DNA of 64,000 nucleotides from Kineosporia babensis (lineage in GTDB: Bacteria > Actinomycetota > Actinomycetes > Actinomycetales > Kineosporiaceae): NCBI RefSeq assembly GCF_021129305.1, contig NZ_JAJOMB010000001.1:62001-126000 (forward strand), read 5' to 3'. The notes below the pieces were generated by a model, which saw nothing but the letters and a program-made list of their open reading frames with translations, searched no databases and was not told where the DNA came from. Of the stretch, positions 16,451 through 53,154 are shown piece by piece. Numbering within the stretch: the first letter of the stretch is position 1; the number at the start of each line of letters is the position of its first letter. Position numbers and translations under genes: made by a program.

Positions 16451-16514
16451 TCTCGGCCCACCTTCCGGCCGACAGTAAGGATTGACAGCTACACCGCCCG
16501 GGGAGGTCGAGGAC

Positions 16515-17267: not shown

Positions 17268-17722
17268 GCTTCTCGCTGCGCGGAATCCGCCGCCAGTCTG
17301 CCCTGATCACCATGGCCGCAGCCGCTTTCGTGCTGATCTCGCCGATCGAGGCGCAGGCCGCCTTCCAGAGTTCCGCCGGCGCCGCCACCACCGTGGGCAC
17401 GGCAACTCTGAACCCGGTCAGCGGGGCCACGGTCTCGACGAGCAAGTGCGGCACGATCCTGACCGCGGCCTATCTCACCGTGAGCTGGACAGCCACACCC
17501 TCCACGTTCGCCACCGGATACACCGTGACACCACTGCTGAACGGGAGTGCGCTGAGCGCGATCAGTGTGCCCAGCCGGACCACGACCACCGTGGACGTGC
17601 CGGTCATCCGAGGGCTGCTCGCGACTTACCCCTACACGTTCCGGATCCAGGCCGTGGCCGGCAACTGGACCAGCACCACGGTGACCACCAGCCCGGCCTA
17701 CAACTGCCCCGCCGTCGCCTGA
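17264..17722 (+). CDS. small secreted protein of the TasA/SipW operon
   Basis: 152 aa. Start ATG overlaps the signal peptidase stop (ATGA). The N-terminus is a signal peptide (MSFSLRGIRRQSALITMAAA, cleavage probably near AQAAF). The mature part is Thr/Ser/Ala-rich with two cysteines and a fibronectin-III-like pattern (LTVSWTATPS, YPYTFRIQAV, NWTSTTVTTSPAY). No named family recognised. Probably exported and part of, or attached to, the surface fibre made by the TasA-like neighbour. Confidence 0.7.
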   Translation: MSFSLRGIRRQSALITMAAAAFVLISPIEAQAAFQSSAGAATTVGTATLNPVSGATVSTSKCGTILTAAYLTVSWTATPSTFATGYTVTPLLNGSALSAISVPSRTTTTVDVPVIRGLLATYPYTFRIQAVAGNWTSTTVTTSPAYNCPAVA

Positions 17723-17736
17723 TCGCCCCGTCGTGG

Positions 17737-17839
17737 TTGTCGCACTGCGCGGCCGGAAGTCGCACTACGCAGCTGAAAGTTGCAGAATCCCAGGCCGAAA
17801 TGAGGATATGGCGCCATCAAGCCCCGCCAAGTGCGACAA
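17737..17839. repeat. three GTCGCACT motifs in the convergent intergenic region
   Basis: TTGTCGCACT at 17737-17746, AGTCGCACTACGC at 17758-17770, and the inverted copy AGTGCGACAA at 17830-17839. The first and third form a perfect 10-bp inverted pair around an ~83-nt interior. It lies between the secreted-protein gene and the converging response regulator; it could be a bidirectional terminator scaffold or a binding array. Confidence 0.4.
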
Positions 17840-17861
17840 GCCCACCGCAGCCCACGAGCCG

Positions 17862-18761
17862 TCAGTAGGTGGTCGGCAGCCCGGTGTGCTGGCCGGCCGA
17901 CTGCGCCGGATCCACCGGTGCCATCCGGTACCCGATCCCCCGCACGGTCTTGATGATCGGCACCCCGGCCCCGGCCACGTCCGCCAGCTTGCGCCGCAGG
18001 TTACCGATGTGGACCTCGACCACGTGATGGTCCGACCACTGCCCGCCCCAGACGATGTTCAGCAGGGTCTCCCGGCGCCAGACTCGGCGCGGATTGCCGC
18101 TCATCGTGGCCAGCAGGTCAAATTCGATCTTCGTGAGCGGCAACTCGGTGCCCGCATACGTGGCGATCCGGCCCTCGACGTCGATCGTGAGCCGGCCGTG
18201 CCGCAGCACCCCGGGCTCCTCCGGCGCGGTCAGCCCCCAGGGCGGCGCGTCCGGAACCGTGGCACCGCCGGGCGTAGCGTAGGCATGACGGCCCTCCGGC
18301 CCGACCACCCCGGCCGAAGAAGCCGAGGAGGCATGGCGCCCGGGGTTCAGATAGCTGCGAGGCTCGGTCTGTTCGGGGCGCGAAACCCGGCGCGGGCGGC
18401 GGAACATCGCGGCCACACGGGCCTGCACCTCACGCGGGCTGAACGGCTTGGTCACGTAGTCGTCCGCGCCGGTGGCCAGGCCGACCAGCCGGTCCGCCTC
18501 GTCCGAGCTGGCAGTGATCATGATGATGTAGGCGTCGGTCAGCTCCCGGACCCGGCGGCACACCTCGACGCCGTCGAAACCGGGCAGCACCAGGTCGAGG
18601 GTCACCAGGTCCGGGTTGTGTTCCCGGACCAGAACCACCGCATCGTTCCCCGTCGTCGCCTCGAACACCGAGAACCCGGTCGCCTCCAGCACAGCGCGCA
18701 GGATCATCCGGATCTCGGGGTCGTCGTCCACGATGACAGCAGTTCTCACCCCCTGCACCAT
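17862..18761 (-). CDS. OmpR/PhoB-family response regulator
   Basis: About 299 aa. Receiver domain at residues ~6-120 with acidic triad AVIVDDDPE, phospho-acceptor in LVTLDLVLPGFDG, ITAS switch Thr/Ser and Lys in VTKPF. An extended, Ser/Gly/Pro-rich linker (~120-190) is longer than usual. The C-terminal winged helix (~190-285: LPLTKIEFDLLATM, VWRRETLLNIVW, VEVHIGNLRRKL, TVRGIGYR) is intact. ATG at 18761 lacks a good Shine-Dalgarno; GTG a few codons downstream is an alternative. No histidine kinase is adjacent, so this is an orphan regulator. Candidate target: the 11-bp direct repeat at 15728. Confidence 0.92.
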   Translation of the reverse strand: MVQGVRTAVIVDDDPEIRMILRAVLEATGFSVFEATTGNDAVVLVREHNPDLVTLDLVLPGFDGVEVCRRVRELTDAYIIMITASSDEADRLVGLATGADDYVTKPFSPREVQARVAAMFRRPRRVSRPEQTEPRSYLNPGRHASSASSAGVVGPEGRHAYATPGGATVPDAPPWGLTAPEEPGVLRHGRLTIDVEGRIATYAGTELPLTKIEFDLLATMSGNPRRVWRRETLLNIVWGGQWSDHHVVEVHIGNLRRKLADVAGAGVPIIKTVRGIGYRMAPVDPAQSAGQHTGLPTTY

Positions 18762-31487: not shown

Positions 31488-31532
31488 GTGGGCCCCCGGG
31501 GGATCGAACCCCGAACCCGCGGATTAAAAGTC
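31488..31532. repeat. left attachment-site copy (tRNA-Lys 3' part)
   Basis: 45-bp perfect match to 53081-53125, i.e. the 3' part of tRNA-Lys from the anticodon loop through the acceptor stem. It is flanked on the island side by AT-rich DNA. The stem-loop at 31452-31482 just outside is probably the original downstream region of the tRNA gene. Confidence 0.92.
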
Positions 31533-31810: not shown

Positions 31811-33073
31811 GTGGATCAAGTAGCTGGCCCGGGCGTCGTCGGGCGTTCTGACTACGGCTCGGCCCTGGCCGCGGAGGCCGCGCGGCTGCCGATGTCCCTG
31901 CGGGGGCAACTCCCCGTCTCGGAGGGCGCTGTCCTCCTTTGGGACGGCATCGTCGCGATTTGTCACGCGTTGTTACATCCAAGCGATGATCTTGACTGGG
32001 TCCAGCGGTTGACCACGGTTCTCGACGTGAAGGCGGCAGCGTTCACACCGGAAAGCTTGGAGGCGATCAGGTCCGAACTGGAGCGCATCGCCGCCGACAA
32101 GGACGCGGCCTGGTTCACGAACCTCGCCCGGTCGGACTTCCTGAAGTTCCTGGAGAAGGCTGTCGGAACAGCTGCCTACCACCGCATTCGCCGGGCCGTG
32201 CTGGACGACATGGCGACCGTGGCAGAGACGATCCGCGTCGGCGTGCAACTGCTTCAGCCGTACGCCCAGGCGGCGGAGGACATGATCCGAGTCCTTCCGG
32301 CGACTAACCGTGGCGATCTGCGATCCGCCCTCGGTGCGGCCGAACTTGTTCTGGTGAAGCTGGTGATCCAGGCTGACCTTGTCCTGGAGCAGCTTCTGGA
32401 CGCCGCCATCAACGACGAGTTCAGCGACGAGCTGTTCACGAAGCTGCCCGCACCCACGACAGAAGAACTCGAGGCAGTCGTTCCCAAGCTGAGGGCGATC
32501 ATCTCGGACCGGGCCAGGCAACTGGCAGCCGAACTCGGGAGCGGTGTCAGCCGGAAGATCCAAGGAGCCAGGGATGCCATCAGCATGTCCGCGGACCCGG
32601 TCTCGCAGGCCGCGAACTCCTTAATCGAGCTGATCGATCGCCTCCTGAGAACTGCGTTCACTGATGAAGAGGTGCTTGCCTGGATCGACGACAACTACCC
32701 CGCAGCAAAAGATTTGAAGTACGAACGAGGAAAGGCACTGGTTCCGACCAAGCGGGCGCAGGCGCTCTGCTTCGTCTTCGGCGGACAACCACGAGGGACC
32801 GGAGACGACATCCGAGAGACCCTGGCCGAAGTGATCGTGAACGTCCGCAGCCAGCTGCAGGGCCTGAAACACGCCGACACCGGAGAGCCAGAAGAGCTGA
32901 CAGAACTCGGACTTCTGATGGGCGCGGTCGAGAGCTTCTTCGCCGTGGGAGTCCGACTGGCTTGGTCGACCGTACCCGAGGAAGCCCTCCAGCAACTGCA
33001 CCAGCGCATCGATCCGACTCGCCTGGCCGCGGCGGAACCGCATGCGCCCGAGAGGACAGGGACGTTCGGCTAA
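31811..33073 (+). CDS. unknown helical protein at the left end of the island
   Basis: 420 aa from GTG at 31811. No Shine-Dalgarno; a TATGGT hexamer ends eight bases upstream, compatible with leaderless transcription. The protein is acidic and almost wholly alpha-helical (AYHRIRRAVLDDMATVAET, VQLLQPYAQAAEDMIRV, LVLVKLVIQADLVLEQLL), with no signal peptide, membrane helix or catalytic motif that I recognise. It is flanked by two copies of a ~56-bp repeat (31611 and 33165) and converges on the DNA methyltransferase. As the first gene of a defence island, it could be an accessory anti-phage protein, but nothing in the sequence proves that. Confidence 0.75.
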   Translation: MDQVAGPGVVGRSDYGSALAAEAARLPMSLRGQLPVSEGAVLLWDGIVAICHALLHPSDDLDWVQRLTTVLDVKAAAFTPESLEAIRSELERIAADKDAAWFTNLARSDFLKFLEKAVGTAAYHRIRRAVLDDMATVAETIRVGVQLLQPYAQAAEDMIRVLPATNRGDLRSALGAAELVLVKLVIQADLVLEQLLDAAINDEFSDELFTKLPAPTTEELEAVVPKLRAIISDRARQLAAELGSGVSRKIQGARDAISMSADPVSQAANSLIELIDRLLRTAFTDEEVLAWIDDNYPAAKDLKYERGKALVPTKRAQALCFVFGGQPRGTGDDIRETLAEVIVNVRSQLQGLKHADTGEPEELTELGLLMGAVESFFAVGVRLAWSTVPEEALQQLHQRIDPTRLAAAEPHAPERTGTFG

Positions 33074-33337: not shown

Positions 33338-35407
33338 TCATTGCTGGAGGGACTGCGCAGCCTGGGCCGCGGCCTGATTGGCAGCGTGCTCAAGGTGCTC
33401 CCAATTGCTTGTTCTTAAGCGCGTGCCCTGAGCCAGGACGGCTGCGCGCACCGCGGAGCGGGCATCGCCTGCTCCGACCTTGATGCCTCCATCTCGGAGT
33501 TGTCGGATCGCAAGCATGGCATGGTTAGCCAACTTCTTGTGCTGTGCTGCGCGCTGGGAGTATTGCTTTCGCTTGCGCGCGATCACGATCACATCGATCC
33601 GATTGGGTTCCAATGCGCCAATCTTCGACAGCGAGGTGGTCACCTCAGCAACAACAGGTCTTGTGGCCGTCACTTCGAACCTGGCTTCCCGCAGTGCCTG
33701 CATCAGCGCGCTCCAGCCGGTAGCAGTGGACTGGTGGAATGAAAAAACGAGCTGACCGCGAGGTTTCAAAACCCGATGACACTCTTTGAAGACGTCGGAA
33801 ATCATCTCCTTAAACTGGTCGGAACTTGCGTTTTGGACTTCGGAATCATTGCGCGTACTATCACGGTCCGTGTAACCGGAGAATGGGGCCATTGAGCGCA
33901 TCCAGACATGAAAGAAGTCTGCAAGCTCCGCGTAGTGAACGTTGTCTACGTAGGGGGGGTCAGTAATGATGAGATCTATGCTGCGGTTTGGAAGATCGGT
34001 GTCGGCGGCGTCGCCCGTCGTTACATAGGCGGCTGTCTCCGAAGCCTTGAAAGAAGCCCAATCCTCGACGATTTCCCGCTCTAGCGGCTGTGATCGTCCT
34101 CGGGTGCGAGAGACCTTGCCTTGGTCGAGTGTGAGGTCAGAGGGCGCGAGCTTGTATTCATGGGCTCGCCGAAGACGACTGAGGGCCTCCGCGAATCCCC
34201 CGGATCCTCCAGCGGCACCCCACGGATTGCCCTCAACGCTGACTCGTTCCGGTCGCAGCACGTGGTTGTGGAAGACGGATCGGACGGGGCCCGTGCCTTC
34301 ACCCTTGTATGAGCAGAAGAGGTTGTTGTTCTCTAAAGTCTTCGAGAAAGAGGCGACGAGCGCCTCGCGCTCGTGGCTCACCGGAAGAACCTTGAGGGAT
34401 TGAGCGAGATATCCCAAGCACAACAGTTGCCGTTCGTTGTAGAAGCTCTTCCAGGTGGAGTAGCCCCATCGGAGGGCCTGCGTGGTGTTGACTCCGTCGT
34501 CAAGATCCCCTTCGGGCAGGACAAGCCCGTCCATGCTGTTAGCGAGGTCCTTGGCAGCCGCGTCGTATCTCGCCAGGTCCCATTCGTCGATGGGAAGGTA
34601 GGTTCGGGTCCTATCCTCATTGAGAACAAGTTTTGCGAACATCCGGCGCGTGGGCGTCGCCCCGTTCAGGGCGTCCAGTACTGCGGCCGTGTGCCCCTGC
34701 GGGCAGGTCATGTGGCGGTTCTTCACTGGCCCGGCGAGATCGAAGTCCCGCTCGCATCCCTCGCATCTTGCTGTCTTGTCCGCAGTCAGGTCGACTGGGC
34801 AGACGGCGTGGCAGCGGGGGCATGTGGCCTGTCCCGTGGCACGTATCCGCAGGTAGGCGTGCCTGGCGAACACATAGTTGGAGAACAGCTCGACGTCGCT
34901 CTCGCATTCGGGGCATGTGGCTACACTGACCCAGAAGTAGAAGAGGACGGGTCTCCCATCTTTCGCCCGGTAGTAGGAGTCGATCGCTTCTGCCACTTGG
35001 GTCTGCACTTGCTGATGTAACCGCTCGATCTTCTCCCAGTCCCACTGCGCGATCGCCTGACGTTGTGTCAGGGTGGCAACTGGATTGATGTCCCGCCCGA
35101 CAACTCTTGCGCCAAGCTTCAACGCTTCGACCAGAGTCGTTCCGGAGCCGGCGAAGGGGTCAAAGACGATCTTGTTGGACAGCGCGTTCTTGGCCTCGAC
35201 GTTGTCGTGTTCATCCGCTGCGGCCAGCATGACCTCGCGAAACACAGTCCCGAGGCGCCGCGCCCACCACTTATGCACGTAGGTGGCCGGCCGGTAAAGC
35301 TCCTTGCGCCAAGACTCGGCCTCCGCCACCTGGGAGACTCGAACAGGGAGGTGCTCTAGCTCCAGACGGCTGCGAGCCGTGTCCCCACCATGGTGCCGGG
35401 AACTCAA
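33338..35407 (-). CDS. DUF1156/COG1743-type Zn-ribbon DNA amino-methyltransferase
   Basis: 689 aa from TTG at 35407 (GAGAGG six bases upstream). N-terminal YVHKWWARRLGTVFREVML resembles DUF1156. SAM motif I FDPFAGSGTT is at 82-91. A cysteine-rich insert (~160-260: CPEC, CPRC, CEGC, CPQGH) forms zinc ribbons. Motif IV TDPPYVDNVHY has DPPY at 483-486, the signature of N6-adenine or N4-cytosine methylation. In the island it stands divergent from drmE-drmA-drmB-drmC and presumably marks host DNA for that system. It is not the cytosine-C5 enzyme (drmMII) expected for a class 2 DISARM. Intact, with lower GC than core genes. Confidence 0.88.
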   Translation of the reverse strand: MSSRHHGGDTARSRLELEHLPVRVSQVAEAESWRKELYRPATYVHKWWARRLGTVFREVMLAAADEHDNVEAKNALSNKIVFDPFAGSGTTLVEALKLGARVVGRDINPVATLTQRQAIAQWDWEKIERLHQQVQTQVAEAIDSYYRAKDGRPVLFYFWVSVATCPECESDVELFSNYVFARHAYLRIRATGQATCPRCHAVCPVDLTADKTARCEGCERDFDLAGPVKNRHMTCPQGHTAAVLDALNGATPTRRMFAKLVLNEDRTRTYLPIDEWDLARYDAAAKDLANSMDGLVLPEGDLDDGVNTTQALRWGYSTWKSFYNERQLLCLGYLAQSLKVLPVSHEREALVASFSKTLENNNLFCSYKGEGTGPVRSVFHNHVLRPERVSVEGNPWGAAGGSGGFAEALSRLRRAHEYKLAPSDLTLDQGKVSRTRGRSQPLEREIVEDWASFKASETAAYVTTGDAADTDLPNRSIDLIITDPPYVDNVHYAELADFFHVWMRSMAPFSGYTDRDSTRNDSEVQNASSDQFKEMISDVFKECHRVLKPRGQLVFSFHQSTATGWSALMQALREARFEVTATRPVVAEVTTSLSKIGALEPNRIDVIVIARKRKQYSQRAAQHKKLANHAMLAIRQLRDGGIKVGAGDARSAVRAAVLAQGTRLRTSNWEHLEHAANQAAAQAAQSLQQ

Positions 35408-35712
35408 GGATCACCTCTCGCTGCTCGCCCATGGGGGCCTCGACCGGACCGATCGAGGCATTCGGCGATGTTAGCCGCCTGGCGACACCGACTTGTCCAC
35501 GCATATCGGGCCCCTGGCTGTGCAGGCGTCTAACTTTCCGTACCGGCTGGTGCAACTTCCATGCATCGACCGCGCTGATCCGGTAAAAGGTGTATACCGT
35601 AACTCTGAGGTTGTCTTGCACCCTGGGGTGACTGCGGTTTCCGGAAATCTCAGATCTTGGATGGCCGTGCTGAGCATGCTGGGACAGGTGAGGCGTCGAG
35701 GGAGGGGGACTG
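35408..35712. promoter_or_regulatory. divergent promoter region between the methyltransferase and drmE-like gene
   Basis: 305 bp without a gene. Contains CACCCTGGGGTG at 35619-35630, identical to a 12-mer at 21804-21815 upstream of the ECF sigma gene, and TGTATACCG at 35591-35599 as a possible -10 area. Both transcription units must start here. Confidence 0.45.
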
Positions 35713-38130
35713 GTGCCGGCCCTCTACCTGGATGCGCTTGCTCCCGCAGACCCCGGCGACTATGAACTCATAGACCGCATCAACCGAGCTCGGTTGCGGG
35801 ACGAAGGCCGTCCCGTGCCCCTGGGAAGTCTTGACGAGGTCCTCTTTAACCTGGTCATCGAGGTCCTCGAGTCTTGTGGCAAAAATCTGCTGCTCTCCAT
35901 GCCAGCTGGAAAACAAGATCTGGGCATCGCGCTCGGCATCTACCTGCAGTTGAACCGGCGCGGGCAAGCTTTCATGCAGCGTCGAAATCCCGACGCGATG
36001 GCCGGACCGGTTGTCGTTTTGGGTCACAATCTCAATCTCACCAAGCGGCTCCGCAACATCAAGATGGGCTCCCACGACCTCTCGCAGGGGATCGTGGCTG
36101 GACGCGTCAGGGGCGACGGTCAGGTCACGTCTCTGACTGGGATTCTTTCCCCTGCCCGGGTGTGGCGGCACGGCCTGCTGTACTTAAATACCTCGCTGGG
36201 GTATCCGGAGTTGGAGCAGGTCCACCCAGAGGTCGCGATTGTCGATGGCACCACCCTGCGACGCGCTGAGTCGATCGAACGAGCTCTCGACTGGTGCTCA
36301 CGGCAGAACGCCGAGCGCATCTTGCTCCTGACCGAGCTCGGGAGCGAACCCTTGGAGGTGGTCGCGGCCGATCCATCCTGGCGTTCCTTCCCTCTGACTC
36401 CTTCGCTTATCCAAGACGTCCGTGATTCGCTCGATGAGAGCACTCCAGGTGGGGCTCTGTCAGCAAGCGCTCTTACCGTCACAAGACGGCTGGCCCCGGG
36501 GATAGCTGTGTACCGCGCACCCGCCCTGGCTGTCGCCCGCCGAAACGCCTTGAGCGCGATCGCCGCCGCCCGGAAGATCCCTGCACCGCGACCGCGGTCC
36601 ATCCAGAACGCTGTCCGCCTGGTCAACGCTCTTTGTAGTCTCTGGGGAAGTCCCAAGACTGCAGATCGGGTGGCGATCGCTCAGGGCGCGAGTTTCTCCA
36701 TCTCCACGATGTTCCGTCGGGTTGAAGCGGATATGGGAACTGACCAGCATGGCGTGTGGGCAGCCTTCCGTGAGACTCGCTGGACCGACCTGCGGCGCGC
36801 CTGCCTCGATATGGCGGGTCTCATTTTTGAGAAGAACCCTCGTCTGGCCCTGCTTGAATCCTTAATTGCCTGGGCAGAAGCGAACAGGCCGGGAGCTCCG
36901 CTTCGCATCCGCACGGTCGGCCGCTCAGCAGCCCTGGCGCTGGAACACGACCTCCACACGGCAGGCATCGTCTTGGACAGCCTGCCTGAAAGCTCTGTCA
37001 GCCATGTCTCGATCCACCCTCAGGGAGAGCGATTGCCGTGGGCAACCACACCGGCGCTCGAACTTCATCTCGGTCCCCCACCCCCCTGGCGCAGGGCCAG
37101 TCTTCTCGCAGCCAGCGCCACGGAGCATGTCGTCGCCCTCGAATGCGATGAGGTCTCGTGGTTCATGAGCTCTCTCACCATGCTGTCGGCTAGCTGGAAG
37201 ATGGACCTTCAGGAGTTCTCAGAGGAGACAGATCTGGAGTTTCCGAGCGGTGCTGCTGAGGTGTCGACCAGGAGAGTCTTCGGCCCGATCAGCATCGACA
37301 GCCGGCGCGAACGAGAGGCCGCGAGCCAACTCGTCGAGCTTCCCGACTTCGATCTGGCGGCCCTACTTGCTGCCTTCACCGAGACAGTACGAGATGCTGT
37401 GGAAGATCCGGAGGAGGCTGACTACGTTCGCCCTGCGGTACGGGCCAGGAAACTGATTTTGGAGCCTGATGCTCGACGATACTACTTACCTCTCGACGCC
37501 AAAGTTGAGGTTCTTTCCGGCGGCGACTATGCAGTTGTCCCGCTTTCAGACCTTACTGCTGGCATGGCTGTGCTTCTCTCTCGCGGTGAAAGCCGGGGCA
37601 ACCTATTCGCGCGGTTGAAGCTCGCGGCGTATAGCGAGATCGATGTTCTTGCTGCCAATCTTCTTCTCGAGCGGTTCCGCCAGGCCGTACGCGAGCTGTA
37701 CGACCAAGAAGGCAGCTGGAGCAAGGTGTCCAGGGCTATTCAGCGGTATGGAAGCCAGGTCGCGTCCGGGGCTGCTTGCAGCAACTGGGCTAAAGGAACT
37801 TCCATCGCGCCTGAAGATGTCGATGACATCCGACGTGTCTTCTGGGCGGTTGGACGCAACGAGATGACTGCGGATGGAACTTGGCAGCGGCTGGGTGCGA
37901 TCGCGCAAGAGCTGCGCAACATGCACCGCGGGCTTGGGCAAGTGATTTCATCAGCCATTGATGAGGCCGCACGTGGTCGTCTCGGTCCCAGTTGCCAGAT
38001 CATTCAGGAACGATGCGGATTCGATCCCCTCGAGGTACTCGAGGAGTTCCAGGTCGCGCGGGTACGTTCGATCGGTCCCTCTGAGCTCATACAACACTCG
38101 CAACTACGTCTCGTACTACAGCCCAAGTAG
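35713..38130 (+). CDS. drmE: DrmE-like DISARM protein
   Basis: 805 aa from GTG at 35713, seven bases after GGAGG. No enzymatic motif is obvious apart from a region that could be a degenerate NTPase (NLLLSMPAGKQDLGIALGIYLQL near residue 60, where SMPAGKQD sits like a Walker A; VAIVDGTTLRRAES near 175 like Walker B). The C-terminus has helical regions and WSKVSRAIQRYG. It lies immediately upstream of drmA in the position and size of DrmE, the class 2 DISARM protein of unknown function. The name rests mainly on this context. Confidence 0.6.
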   Translation: MPALYLDALAPADPGDYELIDRINRARLRDEGRPVPLGSLDEVLFNLVIEVLESCGKNLLLSMPAGKQDLGIALGIYLQLNRRGQAFMQRRNPDAMAGPVVVLGHNLNLTKRLRNIKMGSHDLSQGIVAGRVRGDGQVTSLTGILSPARVWRHGLLYLNTSLGYPELEQVHPEVAIVDGTTLRRAESIERALDWCSRQNAERILLLTELGSEPLEVVAADPSWRSFPLTPSLIQDVRDSLDESTPGGALSASALTVTRRLAPGIAVYRAPALAVARRNALSAIAAARKIPAPRPRSIQNAVRLVNALCSLWGSPKTADRVAIAQGASFSISTMFRRVEADMGTDQHGVWAAFRETRWTDLRRACLDMAGLIFEKNPRLALLESLIAWAEANRPGAPLRIRTVGRSAALALEHDLHTAGIVLDSLPESSVSHVSIHPQGERLPWATTPALELHLGPPPPWRRASLLAASATEHVVALECDEVSWFMSSLTMLSASWKMDLQEFSEETDLEFPSGAAEVSTRRVFGPISIDSRREREAASQLVELPDFDLAALLAAFTETVRDAVEDPEEADYVRPAVRARKLILEPDARRYYLPLDAKVEVLSGGDYAVVPLSDLTAGMAVLLSRGESRGNLFARLKLAAYSEIDVLAANLLLERFRQAVRELYDQEGSWSKVSRAIQRYGSQVASGAACSNWAKGTSIAPEDVDDIRRVFWAVGRNEMTADGTWQRLGAIAQELRNMHRGLGQVISSAIDEAARGRLGPSCQIIQERCGFDPLEVLEEFQVARVRSIGPSELIQHSQLRLVLQPK

Positions 38131-38179
38131 CGCTTCTTGCCACCTCTTCACCGTCTTTCGCTTCTAAGGGGTTTTCGCA

Positions 38180-41100
38180 GTGCTTGAACAGAGCAAGGTC
38201 AACAAGCGCGAGCGTTCTGTAGTCGAGTGGTTACGTCTACGTCTGGGCAGCCGCCTGGCCGACCGTGAGGGCGGCGTCCACGCAGCCCCCTGGCAGCCAC
38301 GAGATAATGTAATTATCGGGGTCCTGTCCCCACGGCGCGTCAAGTCTTCGCCGCCTCTCGCCGTTGTAGGTGAAGACACTGGGCAGCCAGAATCCAATCC
38401 TCAGTCCGATACCTCACCGCCGCCGAGGGTCGGAGAAGCTGCTTCCATGGGCCTTGACTTCAAGGTCCGTCCCAAACCCGGACAGAGCACTATTAGCCTT
38501 GGCGTCGACGTCAATTTGGCTATCTACCTCGAAGAAATTGCACCCCTGGAGGGGCAGCGCAAATACCACGGCGAAGACTTCTTCCACATCAAACCAGCAT
38601 CCGAAGACCCGGAAAGTAATAGCGAATCTGCCCCGGGGGAAAATGACTCTCTCCCTGAGCTCCCAGCCCGCTTGATCGGTTCTGGGCCGGCTAGCCCGTT
38701 TCGGGAAATCGATGGCGAGACTGTCGCTCCCAACGACGCACCAGTGTCTGCGAAAGTCAGCAAGATTGGTAAGGGCAAAGCGGCCAAAACCCCGACTACG
38801 CGACTTATGAGCCAATGGCGACGAGAAAGCCTCAAGCTCGAGGCGTTGGAACTCGAATGCGCTCTCTCAGGCGAAGTGCAAATCCTCTCCACATCACTGT
38901 CCGCAGTCATCAATGAAGCCATAAGGGCTCACTATTCGAGACCAGAGGCGATGCGCCCACTCAGAGACGACGTGCGCACGAACACGATGCCGGTGGAGGC
39001 ATTGGATTCTGAGGCCGCGCTGGACGGTCAGATTAATCGCATGCTGGTGGCCGAGTTCGATCCCGAACCATTGGAACTCGAGTTAGCAGCCTTTGCCCAG
39101 AGCCTTGGCAACGATGAGTACCTGGTACGAGTCACTTTGTCCAACGTTACGATCTTGCCTCAGAAGCCTATTTCACAAGATCTTTCGGCTTACGACTGCC
39201 AGATTGTCGTCCACGCCGACCCTTCCGCTCCTATTGTCCCTCAGCGCTTTGAACTGCCGCCAGATCAATACCGAATGGAGTCCATCGCAACTGTTGCCGG
39301 CCGTGGCACTGCCTGCGTTGCCCTCGGCACCGACGATGGCGGAATCCGCTCCGAAACGCTACCCATCTATGAGCAAATGGTGACCCGCCCTCGCATCCAC
39401 CGTGGCATTCCTGAACTGCGCTGGGAAAGCCTTGCGACGGACCCATTCCCCATACTCATCGCCATCGAAGCAGCAATGGAGGACTACCTCCGAGAATTTG
39501 AAAAGCGCCTTCGCGAAGACAAGGGGACGCCTCACGAGAACGAGCTGAAACGAGGACGGGATCAGTTTGCAGACGAGTTGCGGCGCTTCCGACTTGGCAG
39601 GACAGTACTAGCCAACGATGCCAGCCTCGAGCAGGCCTTCAGACTTGCCAACGAATCTTTCGCCATAACTAACCAAGGTAAGAGATTTGACACATGGCGG
39701 CTCTTCCAGCTCGTCTACATCGTCTCGCATATACCAGATCTAGCTGCTCGTGAGTCCACGGATCCGGAAGTGAGAGACGAACTCAATTATGCCGACGTTC
39801 TGTGGTTCCCGGCAGGCGGTGGAAAGACCGAAGCATACCTCGGCCTCATCGTTACCGGACTTTTCTACGATCGCCTCCGCGGCAAGCACGCAGGCGTCAG
39901 CGCCTGGATGCGCTTTCCCTTACGTATGCTTTCCGTTCAGCAACTCACACGAATGCTTCGCGTCCTCGTCGCAGCAGAGAACCTTCGCGACGAGCGGTCC
40001 ATCGGTTCACCAGACGATGACCCATTCGCGCTGGGCTATCTCGTGGGCGGACCGGGCACACCCAATGCCTTAAGCTTTGACAACGGCTCATGGTGGAAAG
40101 GCTGGGACCGGGAAGTTCGCAACGTTCGAAAGGGAGAGTTTCAGGAGATCCACGAGAAAGACCGACTGGTAACAAAGTGTCCCTACTGTCGGGCAAAGTC
40201 GGTCGTGATGGACCTCGACCTAGACAACATTCGAGTGCTCCACCGCTGTACTAACGATGTCTGCGGCAAGGTGCTACCGCTGTATATCAGCGATGAGGAA
40301 GTCTTCCGCTACTTGCCAGCCGTAGTGGTCTCCACCGTAGACAAGCTCACCGGCTACACTTGGTTCGGAGAATACACTACCTTCACTCACGGTCCCCGCT
40401 ACCGCTGCTCCAAACACGGCTACTTTGTCTTTCCACGCAAGGGCACCTGTCTCGTGGGCCGCGACAACTGTCCACCTGTTCGTGGCGGACACCCTGCGGC
40501 TCGACCGATCAAGGATCCAGTGCCGGCCCTCACCATTCAAGATGAAATGCACTTGCTCAAAGAGGAACTCGGTGCTTTCTCCGGTCACTACGAAGGCTTA
40601 ATCGCGGAGCTTCAGCGAGGCGGACCTAGCGGGCTGCCATCCAAAATTCTTGCCGCCTCCGCAACCATCGTGCAGTATGAGGATCAGCTGCGCCAAGTTT
40701 ACGGTCGGCGCCCTCGCGCCTTTCCCTCCCAAGGCTTCAAACTGGGCGAAACTTTTTACGTGGAAACTACTCGGAACATCCGTCGAGTATTCCTCGGAGT
40801 ACTACCAAATTATCGCCGCAAAGCAGATGTGGCAGCGACCGTTCAGACCGAACTTGCCCGCGCTATCACCCTCCTTGAAGACGACCCCGGTCGCCTAGCC
40901 GAGCTACAGATCCCACCTGACGACTGGGAGGGTCTGCCCACGGACGCCGACGTTGACAAACTGCTGTTCGACTACGAAGTGTCTCTCGGGTACGTCAACT
41001 CGAAGACCCACGGAGCGAAGCTCGACGAGGAGCTCTCCTTCCTGTCCAGTGCGCTTACATCTGAGGGGCATGGACAGCTCTCGACGCAAGTGCTTACCGG

Positions 41101-41881
41101 TCAAGTGCCTATCCCGGACTTGGCCGACGCAATTGAGCGCGTGGAGGAAGACAGCCTTGTCACCCCACGTCCCGACCGACTAAGGGCGCTGGTAGGTACA
41201 TCCGTAGTGTCGCACGGTGTGGACCTTGACCGGCTGAACAACCTGGTTATGGCGGGTATGCCCACGACAGCAGCCGACTATATTCAGGTCACGGCCCGCT
41301 CCGGACGCACTCATGTCGGGCTCGTGGCGACCGTCTACGATGGGAACGCTGCACGCGAACGATCGCTTTTCTCCAATTTCATGAGCTTTCATTCTTTCCT
41401 TGACCAGATGGTCACGCCAGTACCGGTCAATAAGTACGCCTTTTTCGTAGCCGATCGCACGTTGCCCGGCATAGCACTGGCGCTCTTCCATGACATGGCG
41501 AGACGGGCGGCTCATCACGCCCCTGTCGAAGGGGTCCGCCAAGCAAGAGACTTCCAAAAATGGTGGAACACTTACCGGGCTTCAATCGACGCAGAGATCC
41601 TCCAGCGCCTACCTCTCTGCTACAGCATGGGTATTTCTGGCGTAAATGACCCTGGGATGGAGAAAGAACTAGTAGAGCGTGCGGTTGCCCGGTGGGAGCA
41701 GACCGAACGCAATACCATTACGGCCCCAGCCGAAGTATCCAAGACCGTCGAGCTTTTCAAGCATTTGCCATTGAGAAACTTTCGGTCTATCGATGAAGCG
41801 TCAGGCTTCACGACAGTAATTGGAAGTCGCGACGCTTTTAATGCGCTGACCGGCAGGGCCACAGACGATGAGGATGTCTGA
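38180..41881 (+). CDS. drmA: DISARM helicase DrmA
   Basis: 1233 aa from GTG at 38180 (AAGGGG upstream). Superfamily 2 helicase: Walker A FPAGGGKTEAYLGL near residue 545, SAWMRFPLRMLSVQQLTR (motif Ia), zinc ribbon KCPYCRAK...CTNDVCGK near 665-695, DEMH in LTIQDEMHLLKEE (motif II), LAASATI (motif III), and helicase C motifs VSHGVDLDRLNNLVMAG and QVTARSGRTHVGLV (motif VI). The N-terminal ~400 residues are a specific region of DrmA proteins. Together with DrmB it forms the core DISARM complex that recognises incoming DNA. Two bases separate its stop from drmB. Confidence 0.9.
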   Translation: MLEQSKVNKRERSVVEWLRLRLGSRLADREGGVHAAPWQPRDNVIIGVLSPRRVKSSPPLAVVGEDTGQPESNPQSDTSPPPRVGEAASMGLDFKVRPKPGQSTISLGVDVNLAIYLEEIAPLEGQRKYHGEDFFHIKPASEDPESNSESAPGENDSLPELPARLIGSGPASPFREIDGETVAPNDAPVSAKVSKIGKGKAAKTPTTRLMSQWRRESLKLEALELECALSGEVQILSTSLSAVINEAIRAHYSRPEAMRPLRDDVRTNTMPVEALDSEAALDGQINRMLVAEFDPEPLELELAAFAQSLGNDEYLVRVTLSNVTILPQKPISQDLSAYDCQIVVHADPSAPIVPQRFELPPDQYRMESIATVAGRGTACVALGTDDGGIRSETLPIYEQMVTRPRIHRGIPELRWESLATDPFPILIAIEAAMEDYLREFEKRLREDKGTPHENELKRGRDQFADELRRFRLGRTVLANDASLEQAFRLANESFAITNQGKRFDTWRLFQLVYIVSHIPDLAARESTDPEVRDELNYADVLWFPAGGGKTEAYLGLIVTGLFYDRLRGKHAGVSAWMRFPLRMLSVQQLTRMLRVLVAAENLRDERSIGSPDDDPFALGYLVGGPGTPNALSFDNGSWWKGWDREVRNVRKGEFQEIHEKDRLVTKCPYCRAKSVVMDLDLDNIRVLHRCTNDVCGKVLPLYISDEEVFRYLPAVVVSTVDKLTGYTWFGEYTTFTHGPRYRCSKHGYFVFPRKGTCLVGRDNCPPVRGGHPAARPIKDPVPALTIQDEMHLLKEELGAFSGHYEGLIAELQRGGPSGLPSKILAASATIVQYEDQLRQVYGRRPRAFPSQGFKLGETFYVETTRNIRRVFLGVLPNYRRKADVAATVQTELARAITLLEDDPGRLAELQIPPDDWEGLPTDADVDKLLFDYEVSLGYVNSKTHGAKLDEELSFLSSALTSEGHGQLSTQVLTGQVPIPDLADAIERVEEDSLVTPRPDRLRALVGTSVVSHGVDLDRLNNLVMAGMPTTAADYIQVTARSGRTHVGLVATVYDGNAARERSLFSNFMSFHSFLDQMVTPVPVNKYAFFVADRTLPGIALALFHDMARRAAHHAPVEGVRQARDFQKWWNTYRASIDAEILQRLPLCYSMGISGVNDPGMEKELVERAVARWEQTERNTITAPAEVSKTVELFKHLPLRNFRSIDEASGFTTVIGSRDAFNALTGRATDDEDV

Positions 41882-41883
41882 AA

Positions 41884-43707
41884 ATGTCTGAAAGTCAGAG
41901 GATGCTGCGAAGCCGTAGTCAGGTGATGTATTCCTATCTTCCCGGAGCAGTATTCCGCCATGAGGACCGCGTCTATGGCCGCGTCATAAATGTGGTGGGC
42001 TCGAGAGTGAATCGGCTGAACGAGCAGGTCGTGTTTGAGGAGATCGCCCGCAGCCTCGAGCGATGGAAGGAGGACGACCGCTATAACCTACCTATCCCCC
42101 GGGACTCTCGTGAGCGGGAGTACGAGATCCTCTCACCCGAAGACGTCCGCTTCGAGCTATGGCCCTTGGTCTTTGAATGTTCTCACCGCGAGTGCGCTCG
42201 CGTGAAGAGCTTCACAAATGCACGAAACCTAGTCGGCTCGTCCAGATGTGACGAATGCGGCGGACGACTACGGCAATTGAGATTCTACTCGGCACACAAC
42301 TGCGGAAAAACCGTTCCGATGCAGGTGCCAGCCTGCACGACGCATAACCGTAAACACATCTTCTTCGAAGACACGGGCTCCTTTAGGACTGCGGTCTGGC
42401 GGTGTCGTGCCTGCAGCAACCGCGTCGTAGCACGGACCAATCAGTCCCCCTGCGGCTGCCGGTTCACACAAGAGCCGGCGTTCCAACGAATGCGGGCGCA
42501 TACACTCGATGACTCACGTGCCTACAACATATTAGATGTTGATCTGGTCAACATTGACTCATCGTCTTTCAAGACCTACCAAGCCCACCCTCTTCGTGCG
42601 CAGATTGCTCTGGCTCACTACCTGGGTCTAATAGACGGAATTCAAGATGGTCTGCGTCAGGCAGATACCTCTCCCGGATCGTCAGCGAAGCGAATGACTG
42701 CCAGCGAGTGGGAAACGCAGGAGAGAAAGCTGCGGGCAACGGGGCTGCTGTCAGAAGATGACATTGCCACGTTGCGCACGACGTCCGGGCCAGCTGAAAC
42801 GGGTTTGGCCGGCCTAGGCGAACTACCCCCTGGCGTCCTGGACAAGATCGCTACTGAGCGCCCTTTTCTCGAGCGTGCTGCTGTTTTTGACCCCTCAGAG
42901 CTGCAGCGCACGACGCTGGTCGAACAGCTGAACAGTGCGCGAGCCAAGGGGGATACATTGCAGGCCGCGAGCATCCAATCTGGGATCGACTTAGCAGAGC
43001 GCATGAGCTTCTCGGAGTTGTCTGTTACCTGGGAATTCCCCATCGCGAAGGTAGCTTTCGGGTTCACGCGAGAGTCTGTTGAGCCCGGTGAGTCAGCTGC
43101 TCGGGGCTTCAGAACGCAAACAAATCGCAGCGACAAGTACCCGATTTTCGCCGTGGCCTCCGAGACGGAAGCGCTGCTATTGACTATGTCGGCTGTCGAG
43201 GTCGTAAATTTCCTCGCAGATGATGGCTTCGTCTCTACACGCCCATCGACTGAGGATGAGGCTAAGCGCGATGTCCTCGGCATTTTTGCCCGCGAAAGTT
43301 CGGACCCTCTACCTGCGGCTCGGGTACGCACTCTTCTTCACACTTTGTCTCACTTGCTTCTCCGTGGTCTCGATGACGGCCAAGTTGGCTTCGCGGAGGC
43401 ATCTCTCGGAGAATGGATCGTGCCTGAGACCCTTAGTTTTGCGATCTACGCGAACTCCCTGAAGAGCTTCACCCTTGGCTCCCTGTGGACTCTTCTGACT
43501 AATCGGTCTCACTCCTGGCTTGCTTCAGCGGCAGAGCGAGCGGTGCGCTGTGAAAATGACCCACTGTGCTATCAGCACGATCCGCGAGCCTGTGAAAGGT
43601 GCGCTTACATCACTTTCGGTTGCCGCAGCTTTAACCATGACCTCGACCGCGCCGTGGTAGCCGACTACCTCCGGCGACGGGACGTCTTTACCGCCTTGAC
43701 GAGCTAA
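41884..43707 (+). CDS. drmB: DISARM protein DrmB (DUF1998)
   Basis: 607 aa, ATG three bases after the drmA stop. Zinc-binding clusters (CSHREC...CDECGGRL near 100-125; WRCRACSNRV...CGC near 170-190) and a C-terminal DUF1998 domain (LHTLSHLLLRGL, IYANSLKSFTLGSLWTLL, C-x-H-rich CENDPLCYQHDPRACERC). It pairs with DrmA. GC is lower than in core genes. The following drmC starts one base after its stop, so drmA-drmB-drmC are one transcript. Confidence 0.9.
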   Translation: MSESQRMLRSRSQVMYSYLPGAVFRHEDRVYGRVINVVGSRVNRLNEQVVFEEIARSLERWKEDDRYNLPIPRDSREREYEILSPEDVRFELWPLVFECSHRECARVKSFTNARNLVGSSRCDECGGRLRQLRFYSAHNCGKTVPMQVPACTTHNRKHIFFEDTGSFRTAVWRCRACSNRVVARTNQSPCGCRFTQEPAFQRMRAHTLDDSRAYNILDVDLVNIDSSSFKTYQAHPLRAQIALAHYLGLIDGIQDGLRQADTSPGSSAKRMTASEWETQERKLRATGLLSEDDIATLRTTSGPAETGLAGLGELPPGVLDKIATERPFLERAAVFDPSELQRTTLVEQLNSARAKGDTLQAASIQSGIDLAERMSFSELSVTWEFPIAKVAFGFTRESVEPGESAARGFRTQTNRSDKYPIFAVASETEALLLTMSAVEVVNFLADDGFVSTRPSTEDEAKRDVLGIFARESSDPLPAARVRTLLHTLSHLLLRGLDDGQVGFAEASLGEWIVPETLSFAIYANSLKSFTLGSLWTLLTNRSHSWLASAAERAVRCENDPLCYQHDPRACERCAYITFGCRSFNHDLDRAVVADYLRRRDVFTALTS

Positions 43708-43708
43708 A

Positions 43709-44488
43709 ATGCGCACACTGGTTCCTTTCGCGGTGACGATCCAGGAGCTGGTCCCTCGCTCGGACCAACAAGGCTGGTTGTCGTCTTTCATGTCCTCGGG
43801 TGCGCAAGCGCTTGAAGCTCTTGGACTCAAGGGCGATCATGCCAACACCCTCAGCGTGCAGGCACGGCAGCTGGGGTTGCTTGATGAGCGAGGCCAACCG
43901 CAGCTAATAAAAATGTCAGAACTAGCGGTGGTGATGGATGTCCTTGACGCGATTCCACTCAGGCCGCCTGTCGTCCCGGGACCCGAGCAACTCGTCTTTA
44001 CTGTCCCTCCGCCCGTCAAAGATTTGATTACACCCGCCACGCGCCTCGACCTGCTCGTCAACGACGTAATCGCTCGGGCAGCGTCGACCCTGCACATTGG
44101 GGGGCCCTTCTGGAATGAAGGCGGCTGGGATCTCTTGGAGCCGGTTCTCCTACCAGCTCTTCAAACCCGCGATGTGAGCGCCACCTTCTATCTCCATCCT
44201 CACAATGACACTGACCTCAGACTGATCAAGCGGCGGTTGCGGAAGCTCCAGTATTTTGGTCGAGTAATTCAACGTTGGTGGGCTGGAGGCTTTCCATCCC
44301 TAATGCACGCCAAATTTGTTGTTGCTGATGGTGGTCGGGGCTATTTCGGGTCGGCCAACCTCACGTCTCTCGGGCTCGGTCAACACTTGGAGCTTGGCGT
44401 GACGCTGCAGCCAACGCAGAGCAAAAGTCTTCTTACTCTGCTGGATGCCTTAGAGAATGCCGGTCTATTCAAGGACGCTCCCGAATGA
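43709..44488 (+). CDS. drmC: DISARM phospholipase-D-like protein DrmC
   Basis: 259 aa with a single PLD motif MHAKFVVADGGRGYFGSANLTSLGL (HxK and downstream N/S) in the C-terminal half, preceded by HIGGPFWNEGGWDLL (PLD-like first half with a degenerate site). DrmC is a nuclease-like member of the family, reported dispensable for protection in some DISARM systems. ATG 1 nt after the drmB stop. Confidence 0.9.
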   Translation: MRTLVPFAVTIQELVPRSDQQGWLSSFMSSGAQALEALGLKGDHANTLSVQARQLGLLDERGQPQLIKMSELAVVMDVLDAIPLRPPVVPGPEQLVFTVPPPVKDLITPATRLDLLVNDVIARAASTLHIGGPFWNEGGWDLLEPVLLPALQTRDVSATFYLHPHNDTDLRLIKRRLRKLQYFGRVIQRWWAGGFPSLMHAKFVVADGGRGYFGSANLTSLGLGQHLELGVTLQPTQSKSLLTLLDALENAGLFKDAPE

Positions 44489-45500: not shown

Positions 45501-46097
45501 ATGGTGACGTTCGAGGTAGCTGGGCTTGCGGACCTGATCAGGGTTCGTGAGGGTCATTTCCGTTTCGAATCCGGGCATCATGGCACTCTGTGGCTCGATC
45601 TCGACTCGTTGTTTGTCCGTCCCTCGGTGGTGGCGCCCTTCGCCCGACAACTTGCGGAGCAGATCAGCGAGTACTCCGTGGATGTAGTCTGCGGGCCATG
45701 GAGCGGAGGGGCCTTTCTGGCCCAGATGATCGCCGAACAGTTGGACCTGGCGTTCGCCTATTCTCAGCCTGCTGAAGACCACCTGGGCACGGACCAGCTC
45801 TACGCGCGGCCATATTCGATTCCCACCGCGTTCGGGGCTCACCTTGCGGGCAAACGCGTCGCCGTCGTGGACGACGTCATCAATGCCGCGTCAGCGGCAA
45901 CTGCGACCATGGCGGCGCTCAGCGCCGTAAAGGCCCGCATCGTGGTCGTCGCCTCGCTGATGACGCTCGGGCAGGTCGGTCGGCAACGCATTACGGAACT
46001 TGGGCATGTGGTCGAAACGCTCCAATCTCGCGATCACACTATCTGGCCGTCGAACGAGTGCCCGCTCTGCGCCAGTCGTGTCCCCCTCGAATCTTGA
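45501..46097 (+). CDS. orotate-phosphoribosyltransferase-like protein
   Basis: 198 aa, ATG at 45501. PRPP-binding loop RVAVVDDVINAASA and the upstream GPWSGGAFLAQMIAEQL and FESGHHGTLWLDLD fit the type I phosphoribosyltransferase family near PyrE. The C-terminus ends with a small Cys pair (ECPLCASR), a common add-on of ComF-like and island-borne members. It transfers phosphoribose to an unknown base; the genomic setting in a defence island suggests a nucleotide-modifying role rather than UMP synthesis (inference). Confidence 0.8.
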   Translation: MVTFEVAGLADLIRVREGHFRFESGHHGTLWLDLDSLFVRPSVVAPFARQLAEQISEYSVDVVCGPWSGGAFLAQMIAEQLDLAFAYSQPAEDHLGTDQLYARPYSIPTAFGAHLAGKRVAVVDDVINAASAATATMAALSAVKARIVVVASLMTLGQVGRQRITELGHVVETLQSRDHTIWPSNECPLCASRVPLES

Positions 46098-46329: not shown

Positions 46330-48050
46330 GGGACTGTCCGGGGAACGGCTCTGGCGCACAAACGGTGGTCGTAGCGCCCAGCAATATCTCAGTTGAGCAG
46401 GATGCGTTGCCGCAGTAGCGGAAACCCAGCTCTCCCGTACATCTGTCGTTTCAGGAGCTTGATCTTCGTGTTCGTGCCTTCGGTCGGACCGTTGCTGTAC
46501 TCCAGACTCAGGGCCGCCGTGACTGCGGCCTGGTCCTGGCGCATGCCGGTGACGAAGCTGCTCAGAGGAGGCTGTTCGAGCGCTTGTGCGGCGTCCATCC
46601 AACCGGCGAGCTTCTCGCCGGCCCGGTTCATCATCATGTGAGCGAACTGCTTGATCAGATTGGCGGATTCGTTCAGGTGGGGACACAGGTCCAGGACTTC
46701 ACTCAGACGCTCGGCATCGTGCTGAGCGAGATTCTCGGGCGCACTCATCAGCCAGGAGGTGACTTTTCGGGGACGGGCCGGCGCGTGTTCCAGATCGAGC
46801 CTGCCCTGGTTGATGTACCGGAACAGCAGATTCTGGCTGCCCGAGTATCCCTGGGCGCGGATCTCTCCCAGCAGATGCGTGATCGGCACCGAAGGCTCCT
46901 CGATCAGACGACGGCGCAGATAGTCGCGGTAAGGGCACACCAACGTCTGCCGGTAGCGTGGTGGGCGCTGCAGTTCCTCTGGCGTGGCCGCTCGCGCATA
47001 CCTTTTCACCGTGTTGAAGCCCCAGCCCAGCCTGCGCCGGCACTCCATCAGGCTCAGCCCTTGAGCCAAGAGATCATGGACCATCCGATGGCGGGCCGCA
47101 GTTCGCTCGTCAATCGCCCGGGCGTGCCACATCTCATGCCTCGGAGGCTCTTTGAGCGCCTTCCCGACGGTCGGACGCCAGCAAGGCGTGTGAGCGACAA
47201 CGACCTTCTCCACGGCCTCGCCCAGCCCGTGCCACAAGTGCCAGCGATCATTGACCTGAACCGCATCCGGTGCACCATCCCGAATGGCCTCAGCGTAAGC
47301 GTTAGAGCCGTCGCGACAGACGATCTCGACCCCAGGATGCGCCTTCAACCACGTGGCCAGGGTGCCCGAGAGCCGGTCGGGCAGGAGATCCAGCGGACGA
47401 TGCGTACCGGCGTCGATGATGATCGTCGCGTAACTGTGGCCCTTGCGGATCGCGACGTCATCCACCCCCAGCACGGCGGGGACCGCTTCTCCCGCGGCCT
47501 GGGCCTGCTCGAACGGCAGCGGCAGCCCCATCACCACCCGCAGCACGGTATCCCGCGAGACCTGCACACCCGCAGCCCCCAGAAGCCGGGAACCCGCACG
47601 CCCAGCGGCCAGAATCCCGAACCTGGCGATCATCGACGTGACCCGCTGCGTGCTCCGCGCCCACCGCCGAGTCAGAGAAGGGATCTGCTCCCGGAACGTC
47701 CTTCGACCACAAGCAGCCTCGACGCACACCAGCCTTCGAGAACGTAGCTCCAGCAGCACGTTTCTGCCTGCGATCGCCACATCCTTCAACCGGCGACGAC
47801 ACCAGCCATGAACCCGGCGCGAGAGAGAACCACACGAAGGGCACGGCGCCTCCGCCGCGGTGGAGACCAACTCGATCCGCAGCCCGTCCCCATCCTCGCA
47901 AACCCCTTCCACCGCGACGGGCACCCCGGGAAACAGCACCTCACCAAGATCAACAGCGCACTCAGATCAAGATCACATAGAACGCGATTCACCGGAAATC
48001 GGCTGCTTCGACCACCGTTTGTGCGCCAGAGCCGGATTCCGGACAGTCCC
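46330..48050. mobile_element. ISL3-family insertion sequence, 1721 bp
   Basis: Terminal inverted repeats of 42 bp at 46330-46371 and 48009-48050, beginning GGGACTGTCCGG, with 38 of 42 matching (differences cluster at positions 13-16). Between them a single minus-strand transposase. The 8-bp flanks (46322-46329 CGGGGTGC, 48051-48058 GTCCGGGT) do not match, so no target duplication remains. Confidence 0.93.
46389..47939 (-). CDS. ISL3-family transposase
   Basis: 516 aa. N-terminal zinc-finger half (CPSCGSLSRRVHGW...CVEAACGRRTF), HTH and catalytic core with acidic residues in LGVDDVAIRKGHSYATIIID and CRDGSNAYAEAIRDGAPDAVQVNDRWHLW, and the late EYSNGPTEGTNTKIKLLKRQMYG typical of ISL3/transposase 12. 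Full length within intact inverted repeats, so probably active. Start taken at 47939. Confidence 0.95.
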   Translation of the reverse strand: MLFPGVPVAVEGVCEDGDGLRIELVSTAAEAPCPSCGSLSRRVHGWCRRRLKDVAIAGRNVLLELRSRRLVCVEAACGRRTFREQIPSLTRRWARSTQRVTSMIARFGILAAGRAGSRLLGAAGVQVSRDTVLRVVMGLPLPFEQAQAAGEAVPAVLGVDDVAIRKGHSYATIIIDAGTHRPLDLLPDRLSGTLATWLKAHPGVEIVCRDGSNAYAEAIRDGAPDAVQVNDRWHLWHGLGEAVEKVVVAHTPCWRPTVGKALKEPPRHEMWHARAIDERTAARHRMVHDLLAQGLSLMECRRRLGWGFNTVKRYARAATPEELQRPPRYRQTLVCPYRDYLRRRLIEEPSVPITHLLGEIRAQGYSGSQNLLFRYINQGRLDLEHAPARPRKVTSWLMSAPENLAQHDAERLSEVLDLCPHLNESANLIKQFAHMMMNRAGEKLAGWMDAAQALEQPPLSSFVTGMRQDQAAVTAALSLEYSNGPTEGTNTKIKLLKRQMYGRAGFPLLRQRILLN

Positions 48051-53080: not shown

Positions 53081-53125
53081 GTGGGCCCCCGGGGGATCGA
53101 ACCCCGAACCCGCGGATTAAAAGTC
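53081..53125. repeat. right attachment-site copy inside tRNA-Lys
   Basis: Perfect 45-bp partner of 31488-31532, from the anticodon loop of tRNA-Lys to one base past its discriminator. Confidence 0.92.
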
Positions 53126-53154
53126 CGCTGCTCTGCCGATTGAGCTAGAGGCCC
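53082..53154 (-). tRNA. tRNA-Lys (anticodon UUU)
   Basis: 73 nt, intact cloverleaf: 7-bp acceptor (GGGCCTC/GGGGCCC), D-arm GCTC...GAGC, anticodon stem GCGGA/TCCGC with loop CTTTTAA, T-arm CGGGG-TTCGATC-CCCCG, discriminator A. No encoded CCA. It is the integration target of the island: its 3' 45 bp recur at 31488-31532. Confidence 0.97.

Follow-up and report, generated by a model that had tools for sequence, protein, structure and literature searches.

We analysed a stretch of 64,000 nt of Kineosporia babensis (assembly GCF_021129305.1, contig NZ_JAJOMB010000001.1, positions 62,001-126,000), here called the window, which contains at positions 33338-44488 a gene cluster of the DISARM type (defence island system associated with restriction-modification). 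It appears likely that this is a mobile cluster belonging to a deep, DrmE-bearing lineage of DISARM, whose protective enzyme would be a DUF1156-like amino-methyltransferase captured from a restriction-modification (R-M) pair. The evidence comes from the gene content and motifs of the cluster, from the recurrence of the DrmE and methylase pairing in other genomes, from the phylogenies of the methylase and of DrmA, and from the site at which the cluster is inserted. Compared loci and genomes are designated by L and G numbers, respectively.

Gene content of the cluster

The cluster consists of a tight operon on the plus strand and of a methylase gene that diverges from it, as an earlier, sequence-only reading of this stretch had described. 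The operon encodes a DrmE-like protein (805 aa, 35713-38130), DrmA, a YprA-like helicase of superfamily 2 (SF2) (1233 aa, 38180-41881), the DrmA partner DrmB (607 aa, 41884-43707) and DrmC, a nuclease of the phospholipase D (PLD) family (259 aa, 43709-44488), with intergenic gaps of 49, 2 and 1 nt. The gene of the DUF1156/COG1743-like DNA amino-methyltransferase, named here "MTaseA type" (689 aa, 33338-35407, minus strand), starts 305 bp upstream on the opposite strand. All five reading frames are uninterrupted over the regions that their families match, and DrmA, DrmC and the methylase contain catalytic motifs. None of the five proteins reaches its own NCBIfam curated cut-off, and therefore the NCBIfam pipeline probably would not name them.

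The genes general to DISARM, those of the DrmA helicase, DrmB and the PLD nuclease DrmC, are all present in the window. DrmA (best PADLOC match 364.5 bits; NCBIfam 308.1 against a cut-off of 950) matched the solved DISARM protein 7s9v_A at E 3e-47 as a single-protein query, and contains the motifs GGGKT at residues 546-550 and DEMH at residues 788-791. For DrmB, the best PADLOC match was 131.7 bits, the NCBIfam score was 46.4 against a cut-off of 240, and Pfam gave no match; with a five-row alignment as the query, the solved DISARM protein 7s9v_B was found at E 5.2e-15. The conserved cysteines are retained in DrmB, which provides the separate DUF1998-type protein of DISARM. DrmC was matched by PADLOC (36.2 bits), by PF13091 (28.4 bits, cut-off 27) and by NCBIfam (36.6 against 133), and carries the HAKFVVADGGRGYFGSANLT motif. 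At the Actinophytocola oryzae locus (L022), no DrmC match was observed between drmB and the methylase gene (15263-15399).

The DrmE-like nature of the 805-aa protein, also proposed in the sequence-only reading, is borne out by its match to the Pfam DrmE_C domain (PF24957, 44.9 bits, cut-off 27); as a control, the PADLOC DrmE profile gave 676.8 bits with the DrmE of L041. An AlphaFold2 model of the window protein, built with 20 aligned sequences (predicted local distance difference test, pLDDT, 77.2; predicted TM-score, pTM, 0.78), was compared with the PDB using Foldseek. Seventy-two matches were obtained at E<=0.001, and the 50 listed were all helicases or translocases of the SF2/SNF2 type, including RIG-I, MDA5, LGP2, Dicer, Hef, FANCM and Rad54 (best E 7.3e-8, probability 1.00, with low TM-scores of 0.14-0.45). 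A search of the PDB by sequence gave a single match, at E 0.069. In the 20-protein DrmE alignment, a GK[ST] P-loop at motif I was found in none of the 19 proteins with letters there, and in all 20 motif II retains its aspartate, without a glutamate after it. The class 2 DrmE proteins of L041 and L067 also appear to be P-loop-less, the alignment being unsure there at 13-14% identity. Guided by the predicted model, we read DrmE as an SF2-like protein that apparently lost ATP binding. The deep branches of the DrmE tree have no firm order.

Several peculiarities of other drmE loci were also observed. The DrmE of L048 has a P-loop-like string elsewhere, near the protein end, and in L029 (2-6325) and L033 (2-6313) DrmE is directly preceded by an open frame of about 2100 aa that contains a P-loop-like motif. 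The C-terminus of the L029 DrmE matches PADLOC HEC-07 (58.5 bits). In genome G502, drmE (L016, 9330-12650 and 11054-11860, minus strand) is split over two frames, which represents either a broken gene or a sequencing error.

Methylases of the DUF1156/COG1743 kind are marked by an HKWWARR-like N-terminus, motif I, a Zn ribbon and TDPPY, and a motif IV of the DPPY type indicates an exocyclic amino group as the methylation target. All four marks are present in the window methylase. Its motif I (DPFAGSGTT, residues 83-91), Zn-ribbon-like cysteines and motif IV (TDPPY, residues 482-486) point to an exocyclic amino group as the target, and the enzyme, which also matches PF01555 in Pfam (66.5 bits), is by these motifs a predicted amino-methyltransferase and not a C5-cytosine enzyme, in agreement with the earlier reading; N6-adenine and N4-cytosine types are not separable from the motifs. 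The label "DUF1156-like" is based on NCBIfam, PADLOC and a near full-length alignment to annotated DUF1156 proteins. The anti-phage DUF1156 family NF042963 of NCBIfam was matched with 128.7 bits, below the cut-off of 1000, and the best PADLOC family was PglXI (98.5 bits, best stretch only residues 453-612), with DUF1156_MTase just under it (95.9 bits). The Pfam DUF1156 model did not match the methylase at E 0.01. The methylases of L007, L022, L023, L027 and L051 all match NF042963 as well, all far under the cut-off.

It is important to mention that the enzyme also appears to fall outside the established DrmM families, as had been suspected: DrmMI and DrmMII were absent among the 25 best of the 60 PADLOC families that it matched, and for the methylases of L022, L023 and L027 the complete PADLOC lists contain no DrmM match at E 1e-5. 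The same profiles recognised their controls (DrmMII with 534.7 bits in L041 and 684.6 bits in L067, DrmMI with 1367.7 bits in L045). The C5 enzyme of L041, used as a query, had no match in the whole window at E 1e-8. A fold search with the model of the methylase (pLDDT 70.6) gave nothing at E 0.001, the best-ranked entries being mostly S-adenosylmethionine-dependent methyltransferases. A phage origin of the methylase was considered and rejected, with just one partial match among 50,697 phage records.

Recurrence of the pairing and history of the methylase

In order to describe the recurrence of the cluster, plasmid records, genome contigs and methylase relatives were searched. When 72,556 plasmid records were searched by tblastn, DrmE was detected in five, four of Streptomyces cellulosae and one of Haloplanus. 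On the one S. cellulosae plasmid examined (L007) the methylase gene diverges from drmE-A-B-C in the same layout as in the window, and it also does so in S. poonensis (L018). Genome contigs were scanned with a DrmA alignment, and the best 80 of at least 590 relatives were taken. With local profiles, a DrmE match was detected in 28 of the 85 loci examined, and in 29 when the later locus L138 is included; loci were sampled according to their similarity to the window, and the counts are not natural frequencies. L015 and L020, each on a contig of 29,586 bases, are one locus and entered the counts as such, L021 (a cut contig) was counted as having no methylase found, and L086 and L094, with weaker DrmE matches (140 and 27 bits), are included in the 29. 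Neighbourhoods were judged within the examined stretches, some of which are ended by contig ends (e.g. L129).

The linkage of DrmE to DUF1156-like methylases is conserved: such a methylase is found at 12 of the 29 loci (the window, L007, L016-L020, L022, L023, L027, L051 and L138), which span three phyla, Actinomycetota, Pseudomonadota (Albitalea) and Deinococcota (Calidithermus). A C5 methylase is present at three loci (L041, L048, L067) and a short SPPF-type methylase at two (L026, L035). The short methylases (L026, 15714-16757; L035, 2822-3787) lie beside drmE-A-B-C and represent a further methylase type in the DrmE lineage. When methylases were searched without the DISARM condition, a match was obtained in 38 of 396 genomes of the phylum (E 1e-10). 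In 14 neighbourhoods of those 38 besides the window, drm genes were found at all three MTaseB loci (G502, G572, G740) and at none of the 11 others; among the 12 neighbourhoods chosen by methylase match, only G740 (L138) has drm genes, G502 and G572 having come via DrmE.

In the methylase tree (29 rows), the eight MTaseB sequences form one clade (support 100/100) of which every member is from DISARM. A second clade (100/100), made up of the window, L007 and L018 methylases, lies within the non-DISARM MTaseA enzymes and has L128 as its sister (97/93). The L023 methylase is separate, on a long branch, and that of L019, cut by a contig end, covers 21% of the tree columns. A single origin of all 12 DISARM-linked DUF1156-like methylases was rejected using the approximately unbiased (AU) test (one clade, p-AU 7.7e-5; with L023 left free, p-AU 0.0024): the methylases are of more than one origin. 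In the 20-row DrmA tree, one clade of the MTaseB-bearing rows was likewise rejected (p-AU 1.2e-39). According to the AU tests the methylase and DrmA trees disagree, and therefore the two genes have different histories and exchange of the methylase took place; its direction was inferred by parsimony. The DISARM label undergoes three changes on the methylase tree, so the linkage was gained or lost repeatedly.

The identity of the window methylase is 54-55% to those of L007 and L018, 49% to that of L128 and 37-44% to those of L008-L011. At the six closest non-DISARM loci (L008-L011, L128, L129), a gene encoding 265-281 aa is located directly upstream of the methylase gene, the one of L129 starting at a contig end. 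The six upstream proteins are homologous (51-60% identical to that of L128), and D62, E73 and K75 are invariant in all six, within YPDF...EGYExKGL, which makes the protein a predicted PD-(D/E)xK endonuclease. A profile of it detects the controls G432 and G442 and has no match in the window genome or in G502, G572 and G740, and a local profile finds it at none of the 12 DISARM loci. Because the window methylase nests in non-DISARM enzymes, the six closest of which follow an endonuclease gene, and none of these nuclease genes was found in the window genome, it was probably captured from an R-M pair. The six loci themselves may contain an undescribed R-M pair composed of the predicted endonuclease of about 270 aa and the DUF1156-like methylase.

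The methylase might instead be an unrelated neighbour, an orphan or remnant R-M enzyme standing beside a drmEABC operon that works alone. Its position on the opposite strand would agree with this, as would the fact that its closest relatives besides L007 and L018 are outside DISARM and that many DrmE loci have no methylase of the searched types. We consider it improbable, however, since three genomes retain the divergent arrangement, with 54-55% identity between the window methylase and the other two, methylases of the DUF1156 kind joined or left DISARM more than once, and the methylase motifs are present in a genome where the endonuclease gene was not found.

Placement among DISARM classes and related systems

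In the DrmA tree (47 of the examined loci, quick method, unrooted; the class 1 group is a sample of seven), the longest inner branch (support 100, length 1.64 + 0.37 on the two sides of the drawn root) splits 19 rows from 28. Every sampled locus of class 1 or of C5-bearing class 2 is on the smaller side, and the window is on the larger one. The PADLOC DrmA scores are similar to that of the window in L020 (354.2 bits), L026 (381.0) and L035 (385.6); as the models match this lineage, they recognise its DrmA as DISARM-like also in cases where the other components go unrecognised.

Compared with class 2 DISARM (DrmA, DrmB, DrmC, DrmE, DrmMII), the window has the same drmE-A-B-C content and order and a DrmE_C domain found by Pfam, but the C5 methylase DrmMII is missing and an amino-methylase of the DUF1156 kind is present, DrmE has no PADLOC match and DrmA belongs to the other deep lineage. 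An ordinary class 2 system in which the C5 methylase was replaced once, in this strain, would account for the DrmE_C domain and for the gene order shared with L041 and L067. That explanation is quite doubtful, given the longest inner branch, with support 100, between the window DrmA and those of C5-bearing class 2 loci, and the recurrence of the amino-methylase pairing at 12 loci. With class 1 DISARM (DrmD, DrmMI) the window shares DrmA, DrmB, DrmC and an amino-methylase, and it differs in having DrmE and a methylase other than DrmMI; DrmD had no PADLOC match in the 10 window proteins scanned, not all small open reading frames (ORFs) being among them, and the largest other ORF of the insert encodes a 516-aa transposase.

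The sequence-only reading had called the cluster a hybrid or undescribed DISARM variant. The first part is not supported: a class 1/class 2 hybrid was rejected, as the methylase is unlike DrmMI, DrmA is parted from sampled class 1 and C5 class 2 alike, and the pairing occurs at 12 loci in three phyla. The second part is supported in that no description of a DrmE-DISARM with a DUF1156-like methylase was found in the literature searched, supplementary files and most subscription papers lying outside that search. The DISARM methylases are named DrmMI and DrmMII by Bravo et al. 2022 (PMC9142583), and in the PADLOC rules type II requires DrmMII and type I prohibits drmE (PMC9252829). The main text of Bell et al. 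2025 (PMC12458937) leaves DrmE and DUF1156 unmentioned; its Figure 1 legend refers to many uncharacterized DISARM-like classes, which may include the window variant.

Other systems resemble the cluster in part. The pair of DUF1156-like methylase and predicted PD-(D/E)xK nuclease contains the closest methylases outside DISARM, but its six loci have no drm genes in the examined stretches and the window genome has no nuclease match. BREX (bacteriophage exclusion) PglXI and the anti-phage DUF1156 proteins are matched by the window methylase, although these matches are partial and far under 1000, and no BREX partner was found among the scanned window proteins. ARMADA and other YprA-helicase systems, as presented in PMC12458937, likewise combine a YprA-family helicase with an amino-methylase; ARMADA has BrxHII- and PglX-like proteins, whereas the window has separate DrmA and DrmB plus DrmE, and BrxHII had no PADLOC match in the 10 window proteins scanned.

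Several observations weigh against a captured methylase in a deep DrmE lineage of DISARM. The window DrmE lies far from the canonical protein (nothing in PADLOC at E 0.01; NCBIfam 27.9 against 80 bits), and DrmC is shorter than the 354 aa annotated in L007. At 12 of the 29 loci with DrmE, the examined stretch contains none of the three methylase types searched for, and the DrmE core may therefore function with no methylase. The three label changes may be gains or losses alike, the trees being unrooted, and the groups in the AU tests were chosen after the trees were seen. The divergent MTaseA DISARM loci are few (n=3), L007 and L018 being almost identical. The endonuclease call comes from motif and position, with no Pfam match at E 0.01 and best matches of E 0.14 in NCBIfam and E 0.26 in the PDB. 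Finally, the haloarchaeal locus L039 falls on the window side of the DrmA tree, and a DrmMI-like (338.9 bits) and a DrmMII-like (197.2 bits) enzyme are encoded close to it; the deep DrmA split therefore does not separate the classes strictly. This haloarchaeal DISARM (4970-9136 and 16145-18466) has no DrmE match.

The inserted element and a possible mode of action

The cluster is inserted at a tRNA-Lys gene. The 3' end of tRNA-Lys (TTT) (53081-53154, minus strand), at 53081-53125, forms the right attachment repeat, and an exact 45-bp copy of it at 31488-31532 (plus strand) forms the left one, in direct orientation. The 45-bp sequence occurs once in the stretches compared from three sister genomes (G758, G759, G760), 17-35 bases of the window left of 31488 match the sequence after the tRNA in these genomes, and the other five genomes of this genus contain no DrmE match; positions 31488-53080 are therefore an insert of 21.6 kb that carries the DISARM cluster. 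Further left of the insert the relatives differ, so the tRNA-Lys site is probably a hotspot. Tyrosine integrase (PF00589) was found at 10 places genome-wide, none of them in the insert; other recombinase types were not searched genome-wide.

A decaying island whose cluster is no longer active is very unlikely, as the five frames are open over the family-matched length and DrmA, DrmC and the methylase retain catalytic motifs, even though no tyrosine integrase was found in the insert, an ISL3 transposase gene is located downstream and the DrmC of L007 is longer than that of the window.

Downstream of drmC, the insert contains a pyrE-like phosphoribosyltransferase gene (45501-46097, plus strand) and the ISL3-family transposase gene (46389-47939, minus strand). 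On its other side, a gene convergent with that of the methylase (31811-33073, plus strand) encodes a 420-aa protein without Pfam, PHROG, NCBIfam or PADLOC match. On the S. cellulosae plasmid, DISARM adjoins TnsA-like and transposase genes (L007, 24002-28346), and ORFs roughly alike in size and order to these are found beside the near-identical S. poonensis DISARM copy (L018, 14986-20064).

In the proposed mode of action, the methylase would modify host DNA at a specific motif, producing N6-methyladenine or N4-methylcytosine. Solved DrmAB is activated by unmodified 5'-overhang DNA (Bravo et al. 2022, PMC9142583); by analogy with it, unmodified DNA bearing a 5' single-stranded overhang, as incoming phage DNA does, would switch on the DrmA-DrmB of the window, which would show lower activity on methylated DNA. 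DrmE, with its predicted SF2-like fold and no P-loop, may serve as a DNA-binding or regulatory scaffold, and the PLD-family DrmC would degrade DNA. More tentatively, the lineage could represent a third DISARM class, deeply branching and founded on DrmE as an SF2 helicase with a dead ATPase, with the methylase as an exchangeable plug-in taken repeatedly from R-M or other DUF1156 stock and a core that reads many marks or none in particular.

The variant goes unnamed by the profile cut-offs used here, and the role of DrmE gains a structural hypothesis. DISARM has been described with two methylases, DrmMI and DrmMII, and the DrmE lineage presented here has unrelated amino-methylases, apparently exchanged over its history. 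This suggests that the enzyme with which DISARM-type defences mark 'self' DNA can be exchanged, and it makes testable the question of whether DISARM reads a particular methyl mark or only missing methylation near free ends.

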